This document shows, in pieces, positions 1 through 14,127 of a DNA stretch of 64,000 nucleotides. The notes below the pieces were generated by a model, which did no database searches, was not told the DNA's origin, and was given only the letters and a program-made list of their open reading frames with translations. The DNA comes from an uncultured Mediterraneibacter sp. Its GTDB lineage: Bacteria > Bacillota > Clostridia > Lachnospirales > Lachnospiraceae. The DNA lies in NCBI GenBank assembly GCA_944377745.1, contig CALWFV010000013.1:1-64000 (forward strand), given 5' to 3'. Made by a program: the position numbers and the translations under genes. Position 1 is the stretch's first letter. Each line of letters begins with the position of its first letter.

Positions 1-701
1 GCGGCGCTTGTTTCCGCCGCTTTCACGCCAACCGGAATGACAGTCTGGTAAACCTTAACCATTCTCCCGTAATTCTGCCGGATACTCTCTGCAGTCACAC
101 GGGCCAGATTGGTCCGCATATCCGCAAGCGTTAAAAGTACACCGTCCACCTTCAACGCCGGATTAATCTGTCTTTGTACCTTGCCGATTGTTTTCATGAG
201 CTGTGTCATTCCCTTTGCTGGAAGATACTGGGCCTGCACCGGAACAATTACACTGTCGGACGCTGCCAGTGCATTGATCGTCAGCATACCCAAACTTGGC
301 ATACAGTCGATTAACACATAGTCATATCCGCTTTTTACTTCATTCAGGTAATTTTTCAGCGTCAGTTCCCGGCTCATGGCATTGACAAGCATAACTTCCA
401 GTCCTGCCAATTCAATATTGGACGGGATCAGATCGACGCCTTCCTCATGGTGTAAAATCCCGGCGTGGCTATCCATTTCCCGGTCAGCCACAATCCCCTC
501 TAACTGTGTGGCAAGTGTTACAGAAAGGTTATCCTGCTCCGGCCATCCCAGTGAGGTTGTCAGATCGCCCTGTGGATCAGCGTCCACCAGAAGAATCTTT
601 TTCCCTTCTCTGGCAAGCCCGATCCCTAGGTTGACGGTGGTAGTGGTTTTCCCGGTTCCGCCTTTCTGGTTGGCAATCGCAATTACTTTGCAACTCGCCA
701 T
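1..701 (-). CDS. parA: ParA/Soj-type partition ATPase (3' end cut by window edge)
   Basis: This is a deviant Walker ATPase of the ParA/MinD family, which segregates plasmids or chromosomes by binding DNA with ATP and being stimulated by ParB. The N-terminus shows the deviant Walker A motif KGGTGKTTT (residues about 13-21), followed by the Walker B-like LLVDADPQG and the later YVLIDCMPSLG segment. The start ATG at 701 is preceded by AGGAGGGAACC. The frame stays open for 233 codons and leaves the window, so the C-terminus is missing. The family members it most resembles are those on conjugative elements of Firmicutes rather than chromosomal Soj. Together with the neighbouring accessory genes this suggests an integrated mobile element. 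ParB would be expected to the left, outside the window. Confidence 0.9.
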   Translation of the reverse strand, partial: MASCKVIAIANQKGGTGKTTTTVNLGIGLAREGKKILLVDADPQGDLTTSLGWPEQDNLSVTLATQLEGIVADREMDSHAGILHHEEGVDLIPSNIELAGLEVMLVNAMSRELTLKNYLNEVKSGYDYVLIDCMPSLGMLTINALAASDSVIVPVQAQYLPAKGMTQLMKTIGKVQRQINPALKVDGVLLTLADMRTNLARVTAESIRQNYGRMVKVYQTVIPVGVKAAETSA

Positions 702-899: not shown

Positions 900-1763
900 C
901 TAATCTGTCAAAATTTGAATTGATCCAAATTGGTTAACTATACCTGCATTCTCCTCTTCTGGATAGTTTTTTAATAATATTTTATATCCAGAGTCAAAAT
1001 ACGCCGCAGGGAATAAACTGCTTAAAGATAAAAATTCATTTGATCCCAACCATTTAAAACCAACACTCGTTGGTATTTTTGCTATTCCAACAATTAAATC
1101 ACTATAGTCACCGGGAAATTCTTCATTTTTTCTTATCATATATGCATGTTGCGCATGTGGTCTCAAAAAATAAGACGGTGTTGCCTTTCGGAGATCAACC
1201 AAAGTTGTATCCGTCCCTTTATAAACCCCAAATTGCGTTGTTTCCTCTCTTGCATCAGAAACCATAAGAATAATATAAGCATACTCCTCTTTTGAGTCAT
1301 AGTAATATACATACTCGTGCGTATTAATTGACACAGCTTTAGCTTGATGTAATGCAAACCACAAAGCCACCCATACATTATCTACCAAGTCAATGTATGG
1401 TGTTCGTACACCATAATGTTGAATTAAAGGTTCAAAAACAGCTCTATTATATTGTCTAAAAATCCTTTTCCCTTTAATTGCTGCATTAATTCGTGCATTA
1501 TATTTCCATGTTATACTATCAAGCCTAGTCTTTCCACGATAGAGAGAAGGAATCATTGAACCATTATATAAAGAAGTTTGACCTCTAAAATATACATTTC
1601 CTATTTTGTTGTTTTTATATTTTCCAAATCCGATAAATTGTGTTAAGTCATGTACTGTTTCAATTAAATAGACATTTATGTTACTTCCACATGCCAACTT
1701 AACTGTTTCTACAGCAATATTTGAAGGTGTTTTCTTTTCAAAATTATCAATAATGTAATACAT
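900..1763 (-). CDS. FRG-domain protein
   Basis: The 287-residue protein has the features of the FRG domain, named for its conserved Phe-Arg-Gly. The segment VYFRGQTSLYNGSMIPSLYR is at about residues 57-76, and a later block resembles the family's QHYG...T...D...NPWVALWFA pattern (LIQHYGVRTPYIDLVDN, about residues 113-129, then VALWFALH). The biochemical role of FRG proteins is not established. They are often found in mobile and defence-associated regions. The start ATG at 1763 has AAGGAG eight bases upstream. The gene is clearly more AT-rich than the core genes to its right, which suggests recent acquisition. A hairpin at 1779-1807 (GAATCCTC paired with GAGGATTC) lies just upstream. It sits with parA and a small unknown gene at what looks like the end of a mobile element. 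Confidence 0.75.
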   Translation of the reverse strand: MYYIIDNFEKKTPSNIAVETVKLACGSNINVYLIETVHDLTQFIGFGKYKNNKIGNVYFRGQTSLYNGSMIPSLYRGKTRLDSITWKYNARINAAIKGKRIFRQYNRAVFEPLIQHYGVRTPYIDLVDNVWVALWFALHQAKAVSINTHEYVYYYDSKEEYAYIILMVSDAREETTQFGVYKGTDTTLVDLRKATPSYFLRPHAQHAYMIRKNEEFPGDYSDLIVGIAKIPTSVGFKWLGSNEFLSLSSLFPAAYFDSGYKILLKNYPEEENAGIVNQFGSIQILTD

Positions 1764-1984: not shown

Positions 1985-2338
1985 TTAAACGGGAATTTCC
2001 TCCTCTTCTGTTTCTAATCTTCTATCCTCAATCACATCATAAAAATCAAAAATAAATTCCGACATGAAAGATTCCTGCAGTTCTTCCGATTTTTCCAACT
2101 GTGCGATCTCCTGCGGATATTCCATACCGGCAATTCCAAACAATCCTCTTATCATATGGAACGCCTCGCTGATTCTGCTTGTATCCACCAATGCAGTTAT
2201 GGAGAAATAAATATCTTCTATATCCTCAATCCTCTGGCTGTTGGAAAACAGTTTGTCGATCAGGGGCAATGTATAGGCCCCGGAGATCAGATTTACAGTG
2301 CTTTTTACATCTTTGATCTTGTTGTCATCATTCTTCAT
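1985..2338 (-). CDS. Small acidic protein of unknown function
   Basis: This 117-residue protein is not recognised. It begins MKNDDNK and ends in a strongly acidic tail (ETEEEEIPV). There is no signal peptide, and no clear membrane segment. The middle appears helical and hydrophobic (residues about 15-80). The ATG at 2338 is chosen over the in-frame ATG at 2344 because AGAGG lies eight bases upstream of 2338 but only two bases from 2344. The stop codon falls inside a small inverted repeat (ATTCCCG...CGGGAAT). It belongs with the FRG and ParA genes in the accessory segment, and no function can be assigned. Confidence 0.6.
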   Translation of the reverse strand: MKNDDNKIKDVKSTVNLISGAYTLPLIDKLFSNSQRIEDIEDIYFSITALVDTSRISEAFHMIRGLFGIAGMEYPQEIAQLEKSEELQESFMSEFIFDFYDVIEDRRLETEEEEIPV

Positions 2339-2390
2339 TGACATTTCCTCTCTTTCTTTAAATCTGACAAAAGCCATATATTTATAGAAC

Positions 2391-2438
2391 GCAAAAAAGC
2401 CGCCTGCTCTCTACTATAAAGAACAAACGGCCTTTTGC
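2391..2438 (-). other. Terminator-like hairpin upstream of the small acidic gene
   Basis: On the minus strand GCAAAAGGCCG pairs imperfectly with CGGCTTTTTTGC around a 25-base loop, and CGGC is followed by six T. It could end a transcript coming from the right or act in the leader of the 1985-2338 gene. The long loop makes the assignment uncertain. Confidence 0.35.
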
Positions 2439-2507
2439 ATAATCTATCCATATTCACTTATTCATAAACAGAGTTTGCCTGTTTCTTCTGCTGATAACTT
2501 ATGATAA

Positions 2508-2678
2508 TTTGGGGGAAGATACACTCACTCATGTTCAAATTTGGGGGATAACGTTATCCCCCAAAAAGAAACGATACGCAAACTTCTCCTGTTCATTTCA
2601 GAAGAAAGAGGCGAAGTTTCACATGGCATTTGGGGGATAGTCTTCCCCCAACTCTTCCCCCAAAAATCCCCCAAATTT
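2508..2678. repeat. Cluster of G5/C5 iteron-like motifs, including a perfect 26-bp palindrome
   Basis: The motif TTGGGGGA, with A or T before RA, occurs seven times on both strands. One copy starts at 2509. Two form a perfect palindrome at 2540-2565, in which each half reads TTTGGGGGATAAC. A fourth starts at 2630. Three copies on the other strand begin near 2641, 2653 and 2665, giving a 12-base period. No convincing gene overlaps the cluster. It lies between accessory genes and the tsf terminator, the position expected for the end of an integrative element. Possible roles are integrase arm-type sites, partition sites for the adjacent ParA system, or replication iterons. The sequence does not decide between them. 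Confidence 0.7.
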
Positions 2679-2730
2679 ATCAGTAAAATACGGTAATTTA
2701 CGATACTTTGCGGATTTTCTCCAGAATCAC

Positions 2731-2774
2731 AAAAAGCCCTTGAAAACGCCCGTTTTACGGGATTTTCAAGGGCC
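2731..2774 (-). terminator. Terminator of the rpsB-tsf operon
   Basis: On the minus strand GCCCTTGAAAA pairs with TTTTCAAGGGC, with an inner CCCG/CGGG stem, and TTTTT follows. It lies 33 bases after the tsf stop codon and is a textbook intrinsic terminator. It also marks the boundary between core and accessory DNA in this window. Confidence 0.9.
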
Positions 2775-2806
2775 TTCAGCACCTTTTTAAGCTGTGGGAT
2801 TAAATC

Positions 2807-3733
2807 CTAGTTTCCAGCCATCTGTTTTGCGACTTCCTCAGCAAAGTTCTCCTGTTTCTTCTCGATTCCTTCGCCAGTCTCAAAGCGGACAAACTTTGTA
2901 ACTTTCATATTCGCACTGTTCTCTTTTGCGACCTTGTCAACGTATTTTGCAACCGTAAGGTCGCCATCCTGAACGTATACCTGATCGAGCAGACAGATCT
3001 CTTTCATCTCTTTGTTGAGACGTCCGATGATCATCTTCTCGATGATATTGTCCGGCTTCTCCGGGTTCTCTTTCTTCGCCTGAGCGAGAAGGATCTCTTT
3101 CTCGTGATCCATGAAATCCTGGGAAACTTCGTCGCGGGATACATACTTCGGGGACATAGCTGCAACCTGCATAGCCACGTTCTTCAGGCATGCCTTGATC
3201 TCGTCATTTACAACATCTGTATCGGCAACTACAAGGACACCGATACGTCCGCCGCCGTGGATGTAGGATACAACACATCCGTTCTCAGCATTCACTCTCT
3301 CAAATCTTCTGATGTTCAGATTCTCTCCGATAACAGCGATCTTCTCAACAAGAGCATCCTTTACTGTTTTGGACGGATCAGCTGCCCATGCGGCTGCCAT
3401 GAATGTGTCCATATCAGCCGGATCTGTGTCAGCCACCTGATTTGCAACAGTATCAACAAATCCCTGGAACTCATCGTTCTTTGCAACGAAGTCTGTCTCG
3501 GAGTTGACCTCAACGATCGCTGCGATCTTATCATCTTTCACGACAGTCTTAACAATACCCTCTGCTGCGATCCTTCCGGCTTTCTTTTCAGCCTTAGCCT
3601 GTCCGTTCTTTCTCAGGAACTCAACAGCGGCATCCATATCGCCGTTTGTCTCAGTAAGAGCTTTCTTGCAGTCCATCATTCCTGCGCCTGTCATCTCTCT
3701 TAATTCTTTTACCATTCCTGCTGTGATTGCCAT
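2807..3733 (-). CDS. tsf: Elongation factor Ts
   Basis: EF-Ts is the guanine nucleotide exchange factor for EF-Tu. The 308-residue product has the typical N-terminal UBA-like segment (VKELREMTGAGMMDCKKAL) and the TDFVAKN motif that contacts EF-Tu. The length is normal for the long bacterial form. The ATG at 3733 is chosen because GGAGG lies eight bases upstream; a longer in-frame start five codons earlier has no better signal. It follows rpsB by 28 bases, is transcribed with it, and ends before the strong terminator at 2731-2774. Confidence 0.97.
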   Translation of the reverse strand: MAITAGMVKELREMTGAGMMDCKKALTETNGDMDAAVEFLRKNGQAKAEKKAGRIAAEGIVKTVVKDDKIAAIVEVNSETDFVAKNDEFQGFVDTVANQVADTDPADMDTFMAAAWAADPSKTVKDALVEKIAVIGENLNIRRFERVNAENGCVVSYIHGGGRIGVLVVADTDVVNDEIKACLKNVAMQVAAMSPKYVSRDEVSQDFMDHEKEILLAQAKKENPEKPDNIIEKMIIGRLNKEMKEICLLDQVYVQDGDLTVAKYVDKVAKENSANMKVTKFVRFETGEGIEKKQENFAEEVAKQMAGN

Positions 3734-13194: not shown

Positions 13195-14127
13195 TTACGA
13201 AAACATATCGAAGTGATCCCGTTTTTCCTCCGGATCATTTTTCATTTTCGCCTCTTCCATCTGCCGGATCATCACGAACATCACAGAACAGATAAATGCG
13301 CTTAAGATGATCGCCATCGCCATCCTGATCAGATCCGCCGCCAGCCAGTTGAACAGCCCTGCCTGTGTAAAGACCAGGGCTCCCAGGTTCAGCGCGATGT
13401 GAAGGAGCAGAGGCGCCTTTATAGATCCGAACTTCTCATAAAGCCATGCCAGCATGATCCCCAGGAGAAACGTATAGACCATCTGGATCGTATTCGTATG
13501 CATGATCGAGAAGAACAAGGCCGACCACAGGGCGGAGTACCAGAACCGCCTGTTCTCCCGGTATCTTGAAAACATGATCCCCCGAAACATGAACTCCTCT
13601 GCAACCGGAACGATCAGGCCCAGCGCAAGAAGCTGCATTGGAAACGGAGCGGAATATACCGCCTGGGTACTCTGAAGATATTCCTGGTCGTACATGACGG
13701 CCTGGGCCATGGCCGACAGGCAGGTGACTCCGATCGTTCCTGCGATCCCGAACACTGCTACCGGAAGGTATTTGTCCGACGCAATCTTCTTCGGCGGAGC
13801 GATCCCGAGACTTTTTTCCAGTTTCCTGTCCTTGCGGAACAGGATCAGCGTCAACGGAAGCGTACAGAGCGCAGCCGCTCCCGTGATCTCCGTCGCATAC
13901 CTCATCACCGCCTCCATCGCCGGACCGATCACAGAAAGATAGCTTTCCATCATCTCTTCTGAATTTGTGATCTGACCGCTCATGAACTGTTCCAGATAGG
14001 CGCTGGTCATCATCGGCACCTGGATGATCGCCTGGATGATAAACTGGACTCCGAGCTGAATCCCCCAATAGGCGATCAGCGGACCGGCAACGCTCCAGAA
14101 CGGACTCTTTCTATGGATATGGTTCAT
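13195..14127 (-). CDS. CPBP (CAAX/Abi) family intramembrane metalloprotease
   Basis: The 310-residue multi-pass membrane protein carries the three motifs of the CPBP family. These are EEFMFRG (Glu-Glu...Arg), FSIMHTN (Phe...His) and a later His/Asn block (LLLHIALN), which form the metal site within the membrane. Family members process proteins or confer bacteriocin immunity; the substrate here is unknown. The ATG at 14127 is preferred because its A is the last base of the TGA stop of the preceding gene (TGATG), which indicates translational coupling. The longer GTG start at 14157 has no properly spaced ribosome binding site. It is the last gene of the argS operon. Confidence 0.88.
   Translation of the reverse strand: MNHIHRKSPFWSVAGPLIAYWGIQLGVQFIIQAIIQVPMMTSAYLEQFMSGQITNSEEMMESYLSVIGPAMEAVMRYATEITGAAALCTLPLTLILFRKDRKLEKSLGIAPPKKIASDKYLPVAVFGIAGTIGVTCLSAMAQAVMYDQEYLQSTQAVYSAPFPMQLLALGLIVPVAEEFMFRGIMFSRYRENRRFWYSALWSALFFSIMHTNTIQMVYTFLLGIMLAWLYEKFGSIKAPLLLHIALNLGALVFTQAGLFNWLAADLIRMAMAIILSAFICSVMFVMIRQMEEAKMKNDPEEKRDHFDMFS

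Follow-up and report, generated by a model that had tools for sequence, protein, structure and literature searches.

The cluster of short repeats downstream of tsf in the window (the whole 64,000-nucleotide stretch of DNA analyzed here) is, from sequence comparison, very probably the tsf-proximal arm-site array, i.e., the left att half, of an ICE or an ICE remnant inserted in the 3' end of tsf. The original prediction had named integrase arm sites, a parS-type centromere and replication iterons as equally fitting explanations. Integrase arm sites are now strongly supported by a motif found at both ends of related elements, by its position beside the integrase and by a conserved layout, and the other two explanations are disfavored.

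A scan of the window located seven copies of TTGGGGGA within 166 bp. Read from tsf, the array begins with three direct sites on the minus strand (site 1, 2667 to 2674; site 2, 2656 to 2663; site 3, 2644 to 2651) and one inverted site on the plus strand (site 4, 2630 to 2637), placed at 0, +11, +23 and +37 to +38 and identified by the scan as well as by the layout test described below. These are followed by a pair of sites (site 5, 2557 to 2564, minus strand; site 6, 2541 to 2548, plus strand) that form an exact 26-bp palindrome at 2540 to 2565, and by one more site (site 7, 2509 to 2516, plus strand). Site 6 was assigned from sequence and alignment; site 5 has a homologous site in the TTGGGGA-class ends of genomes G198 and G215, and site 7 has one in G198 and a degenerate one in G215. 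Both the seven copies within 170 bases and the perfect palindrome that had been predicted were thus confirmed; the three copies said to lie at 12-base intervals proved to be an evenly spaced trio (2667, 2656 and 2644) with gaps of 11 and 12 bases. The seven copies found per 170 bp compare with a maximum of two when the whole window was dinucleotide-shuffled 200 times and likewise when the local 180 bp were shuffled 2000 times. Outside the cluster, a single isolated copy is found at 14061 to 14068; shuffles of the entire window contain 2.7 copies on average.

Outward from tsf, the order of features is the tsf tail, its terminator, an AT-rich repeat, sites 1 to 4, a 65-bp spacer, the palindrome (sites 5 and 6) and site 7; further inward follow a second AT-rich repeat, a terminator-like hairpin, a 130-aa ORF, a gene encoding an FRG-domain protein and a ParA gene. 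The AT-rich repeat on the outer flank of the array, TATCGTAAATTACCG (2691 to 2705, minus strand), has counterparts of similar sequence, noted on visual inspection, in left ends that belong to other motif classes, and the one on the inner flank, TTATCATAAGTTATC (2493 to 2507, minus strand), was identified from sequence and alignment. An Rfam search of 1800 to 2900 gave six matches at E values up to 1, every one of them far under its gathering score.

The palindrome and cluster had been predicted to lie at the element boundary, which is instead found about 145 bp further on, within the last tsf codons (2818 to 2830, minus strand), so that the tsf stop codon and the tsf terminator hairpin (2731 to 2776, minus strand) are on the element's side. 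This tsf tail, GCAAAACAGATGG, was assigned as the att core region on the basis of a junction in G432 and of tsf-tail copies that follow the integrase in related elements. In G432, which belongs to another genus, the window's segment begins at GCAAAACAGATGG, shortly past G432's own tsf stop codon. From the core on, the two sequences are 98.9% identical over 526 bp, whereas their tsf genes are 69.7% identical; therefore, the tsf tail, the terminator hairpin and the cluster travel together. An array beside a target-gene tail that has been duplicated or replaced by the element was found at this junction and, for a relative, at the flanks of a 33.1-kb element in G007. When joined, the G007 flanks align without gaps across the junction to G025, which does not have G007's element and carries a shortened TTGGGGGA array; when left unjoined, the alignment to G025 ends about 15 bases beyond the core.

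Further analysis of tsf tails in relatives revealed additional copies. A second tsf-tail copy is located approximately 31 to 32 bp past the first in G028, G036, G027 and G432 (L042, L032, L076 and L028), and G376 and G215 show a similar double core at their integrase ends (L158 and L159). In G023, G468 and G246, an insert of about 105 bp that begins with GTGAATCAAGTCC separates the tsf stop codon from a degenerate second tsf tail, and the later part of this insert is also present in G006 (L033, L014, L060 and L170); it could perhaps be the remnant of a further element.

Matched motifs were identified at the two ends of related elements. The tsf end and the integrase end share one word in G007 (TTTGGTA), G478 and G251 (both TTGGGTA), G479 (TTCGTA) and G215 (TTGGGGA), and the ends of G426 (TTGAGTA) also match, on two different contigs. 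In relatives of five word classes, the arm motif is therefore found on both att sides, and the word beside the tyrosine integrase precedes a second tsf tail; for TTGGGGGA, the tsf side alone was found. The 33.1-kb element of G007 lies between tsf and a second tsf tail, and its tyrosine integrase gene stops just before the far TTTGGTA group; in the 44.6 kb read in this genome, groups of at least three TTTGGTA sites are found solely at the two ends of the element, and ten more single sites are scattered. The elements in G478 and G251 are only about 6.1 kb long, with TTGGGTA at each end, and the G479 element (12.6 kb, TTCGTA ends) carries a relaxase and mobilization genes.

A survey of the named genomes yielded 16 related integrase loci, one of them very distant; among the 15 others assessed, the integrase was followed by repeats and a tsf-tail copy in five (L121, L122, L124, L130 and L132), nine were without these and one was cut off. 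The prediction, set beforehand, that the tsf end would carry the word found at the integrase end held in all three testable genomes out of eight, namely G479 (an Anaerostipes MAG, TTCGTA), G478 (TTGGGTA) and G480 (TTGGGTA, on two contigs). In the five genomes that fell outside this test, either tsf was not found (G477) or the integrase end was without repeats (the other four). Counts of six words across six left and six right ends, where G478 and G251 share one class and G426's ends are on different contigs, gave a near-diagonal table. Off the diagonal, the left ends showed one TTGGGGA each in G478 and G251 and one TTGGGTA and one TTGGGGGA in G215, and the right ends showed one TTCGTA in G215 and one TTTGGTA in G426. 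Separately, the integrase ORF at L092:1441-2790 (G471, L132) starts like the Rep_trans protein of G478 and is apparently a chimera formed by deletion.

Conservation of the layout was also evaluated by a test that presupposes no motif and looks for four 7-mers, of which three are direct and one is inverted, at about 0/11/23/38. Scores of 36 to 42 were obtained in 19 of 59 post-tsf regions, whereas the 427 null sequences, consisting of window segments and shuffles, reached at most 32; the sample of regions was non-random, as some had been fetched for carrying the cluster or an integrase, and one further region of less than 100 bases was dropped. The passing regions represent the word classes TTGGGGGA (9 regions), TTGGGTA (6 regions, including G471 and G480, which appear to be one genome), and TTTGGTA, TTGGGGA, TTCGTA and TTGGGAC (1 region each). 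The remaining 40 regions, including the TTGCGTA ends of G376 and G215 and the TTGAGTA ends of G426 and G483, scored at or below the null maximum. Moreover, in the nine TTGGGGGA arrays, 50 of 56 motif columns are invariant compared to 74 of 110 spacer columns (Fisher p = 0.002, with columns that are not independent).

The closest relative of the window's cluster was found in G215, which represents another genus and carries a stacked array: a TTGCGTA end adjoins tsf and a TTGGGGA left end, located at about 12.4 kb, aligns with the window's cluster. The far end of this ICE, approximately 47 kb beyond the TTGGGGA left end, consists of an integrase, four TTGGGGA sites and a tsf tail, and the tail at its left boundary is truncated. 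The seven window sites align one-to-one with sites in G215 and G198, which are mostly TTGGGGA, with some TTGGGTA, one TTGGGGGA and one degenerate site (in G215); most of the seven homologous sites thus switch together between the TTGGGGGA and TTGGGGA classes, and TTGGGGA left ends hold some TTGGGTA sites. The G215 ICE encodes a relaxase, a T4SS coupling protein, CHAP/lysozyme-like proteins, ParA, ParB and the integrase. Several genes of this ICE have matches in G034, which carries a TTGGGGGA cluster, for instance at 73% identity over 1627 aa of a 2456-aa protein, at 60% over 772 aa, and, for the coupling protein, at 75% over 102 aa; the relaxase, ParA, ParB and integrase of the ICE found no match in G034. 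The cargo of the G215 ICE (L174 to L176) also includes BlaR1-like and PBP-like genes and an OLD-TOPRIM ATPase gene beside a UvrD helicase gene, a pair which we take to be Gabija-like.

The window starts at base 1 of its contig and the element is thus cut inside the ParA gene (3 to 701, minus strand; Pfam AAA_31, E 3e-59), leaving 2.8 kb visible. The encoded ParA is 68.6% identical over 245 aa to the ParA of the G215 ICE. The original prediction, that the neighboring genes do not name the system to which a partition or excision site here would belong, was therefore wrong in part, as the ParA encoded nearby closely resembles the ParA of a related ICE. This gene, about 1.8 kb from the cluster, together with ParA and ParB being ORFs 2 and 3 counted from the left end of the G215 ICE, could suggest that the cluster is a parS centromere, with ParB spreading from it and ParA moving the excised circle. 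A parS would be expected only alongside ParA and ParB, but the same layout is present in the approximately 6.1-kb element of G478, where Pfam detected neither protein among the eight ORFs scanned; in addition, each end has the motifs, which adjoin the att core and the integrase. A centromere is thus very unlikely.

The two other genes on the window's side of the element are the FRG-domain cargo gene (900 to 1763, minus strand; Pfam PF08867, E 6e-11), with a homologue in G007, and the 130-aa ORF (1985 to 2377, minus strand), which is the first gene of the element, has no Pfam match and has homologues in G034, G007 and G002. In G007, the homologues of both genes adjoin a tsf-tail copy. No replication initiator was found by Pfam among the three window-side proteins scanned, which represent the part of the element on this contig; as far as it goes, this speaks against the cluster representing the iterons or origin of replication of the excised element, even though its direct repeats are iteron-like and its flanks are AT-rich. 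Since relatives repeat the motif at the far end beside the integrase, in a two-ended placement that flanks att, an origin is extremely improbable. As main roles, both parS and iterons were thus rejected.

Between the cluster and the 130-aa gene, a terminator-like hairpin (2391 to 2439, minus strand) was identified by eye; it ends much as the tsf terminator does in relatives. This hairpin would fit an operator or attenuator of the leftward genes, in which the repeats are bound by a regulator and read-through is controlled by the hairpins and by the terminator ahead of the 130-aa gene. Sites 5 to 7, which are present in the TTGGGG(G)A lineage and were not seen in TTGGGTA and TTTGGTA left ends, would be consistent with such a function as well. 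An operator, however, leaves unexplained both the matched motifs at the integrase end and the 0/11/23/38 layout before differing cargo, and as the principal explanation of the cluster it has very little probability. Under the preferred reading of the cluster as an arm-site array, an operator function may still be a second role for sites 5 to 7.

Among 61 genomes (60 relatives and the window's own), 13 match some part of 2340 to 2820, and at least four TTGGGGGA sites were found in 7 of 44 post-tsf regions from the genus (G000, G475, G034, G025, G002, G003 and G024); G468 has a truncated array with two TTGGGGGA sites. The palindrome, with up to two mismatches allowed, was found in 3 of 397 genomes of the family, i.e., the window's own, G432 and G164. 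In G164, the sequence past the cluster (L029:10093-16788) encodes a phosphoesterase, a RhuM protein and an ABC-three-component-like set. The plasmid and phage collections searched contained no match to 2380 to 2800, and viral contigs contained no match to two exact cluster patterns. The cluster adjoins tsf in other genomes, several of whose contigs end soon after, and none in which it follows tsf without a mobile element, as would have spoken against an element-borne cluster, was evident. In G007, G023, G036 and G005, the cluster is absent, and inspection by eye indicated that the tsf terminator is joined directly to the leader of the 130-aa gene, with a stretch at the junction that resembles GCTTTTTTGCGTTC, the shared end of both terminators. 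This looks like a deletion between short repeats that would have disarmed the att site.

Integrases were also searched for directly. A scan of the family with an integrase profile, in which up to four candidates were scored per genome, gave matches at E 1e-110 or better in 10 of 397 genomes, and a tsf-tail-like word followed seven of these ten integrases. The integrase ends of G376 and G215 carry TTGGGGA words. The tail-like word that follows the integrase of G378 is approximately 650 kb away from tsf, and neither G378 nor G246 shows an array in its tsf region. Pfam identified phage-integrase and SAM-like domains in the three integrases scanned and no N-terminal arm-binding domain in any of them. 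Their best match among solved structures, covering the catalytic part, is 6emy ('Int protein'), which we take to be the Tn1549 integrase. In pairwise comparisons, the N-terminal part of the integrases was not clearly more diverged than the rest.

A cognate integrase was found in relatives, and the TTGGGGGA element is cut by contig ends. The search for the motif at the element's other end and near its integrase, which had accompanied the original prediction, gave no right-end-like TTGGGGGA pair in 58 genomes of the genus and, in relatives, their own words at both ends. An integrase of the related subfamily was not found in the window's genome, where the best of three matches has 34% identity. 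The TTGGGGA-class integrase gave matches in nine of ten cluster-bearing genomes (the window's own among the ten), with at most 32% identity for near-full-length matches and up to 58% for short fragments. Seven tsf-tail-like words, including that of tsf itself, were found in the window's genome; none of the seven loci has an integrase match, and more than one TTGGGGGA was found at the tsf locus alone. In G164, a narrow pattern that also misses this genome's own tsf tail located no second tsf tail in the approximately 90 kb past the cluster. As neither the far end nor the integrase of the TTGGGGGA class was found, two-endedness is established for the relatives only, and the window's element may be a remnant or may have lost its far end in assembly gaps.

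Taken as an att half, the cluster suggests the following arrangement. Comparison with relatives shows that the element begins in the last tsf codons and brings its own gene tail, stop codon and terminator. The N-terminal domain of a tyrosine integrase would hold the arm sites while its other domains hold the core at the tsf tail, and by bridging arm and core the integrase would build the integration/excision complex. Sites 5 to 7, including the palindrome, could provide extra contacts specific to the TTGGGG(G)A lineage and perhaps also serve as an operator for the leftward genes, and a directionality factor is a candidate ligand of the AT-rich repeats. Among relatives with the same tsf target, the arm motif appears to have been swapped and the layout kept.

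A broader reading, which we hold tentatively and at somewhat less than even confidence, is that the tsf tail is a common att site of many gut ICEs and IMEs, which share one layout and have switched among arm words (TTGGGGGA, TTGGGGA, TTGGGTA, TTTGGTA, TTCGTA, TTGAGTA and perhaps TTGCGTA and TTGGGAC), that the word is a private address for each element, and that ends with mixed words are intermediate. If the words are private addresses, elements stacked at one core do not excise each other; if mixed ends are intermediate, the ends with both TTGGGTA and TTGGGGA represent intermediates of an arm-word switch. These analyses turn a repeat cluster into a defined attachment-site half, and provide a motif-free signature (three direct sites and one inverted site at 0/11/23/38) by which ICE and IME ends could be located in the fragmented genomes of this family. 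Moreover, integrases that share the layout and target and differ in their words represent a natural series, which would allow for testing how DNA is read by the arm-binding domain and whether differing arm words keep elements in a stack insulated from each other.

Several known systems resemble the one described here. According to PMC11963761, which cites earlier work, the attP of ICEMlSymR7A contains five P/arm-type sites for IntS, all of which are required for efficient integration. Like the probable att half described here, it is an ICE attachment region with several copies of an approximately 10-bp arm motif; in contrast to ICEMlSymR7A, which is found in Mesorhizobium and has the motif TGKTGGTATC, the arrays here are located at tsf, have three direct sites plus one inverted site and show motif swapping (PMC11963761). 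Integrases of the IntTn916 group have an N-terminal arm-binding domain that is sometimes missed by Pfam, as stated in PMC8138268. The integrases described here are like the Tn916/Tn1549 group in that 6emy is the best match of their catalytic part among solved structures. Unlike Tn916 and Tn1549, for which the same paper describes insertion into AT-rich regions without strict specificity (PMC8138268), the elements here use the tsf tail. No report of tsf, encoding EF-Ts, as an ICE target was found in the open-access literature searched, although this does not prove that none exists. A review covers tandem accretion, in which elements accumulate at a single site, as well as decayed CIMEs, and the stacked and decayed elements at one att site in G215 and G007 are similar to these; as a difference, the site here is tsf and the stacked elements have differing arm motifs (PMC5704250). 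Read as an integrase arm array, the cluster is of a known kind, and what is less ordinary is that one target and one layout are combined with an arm word that differs between elements.
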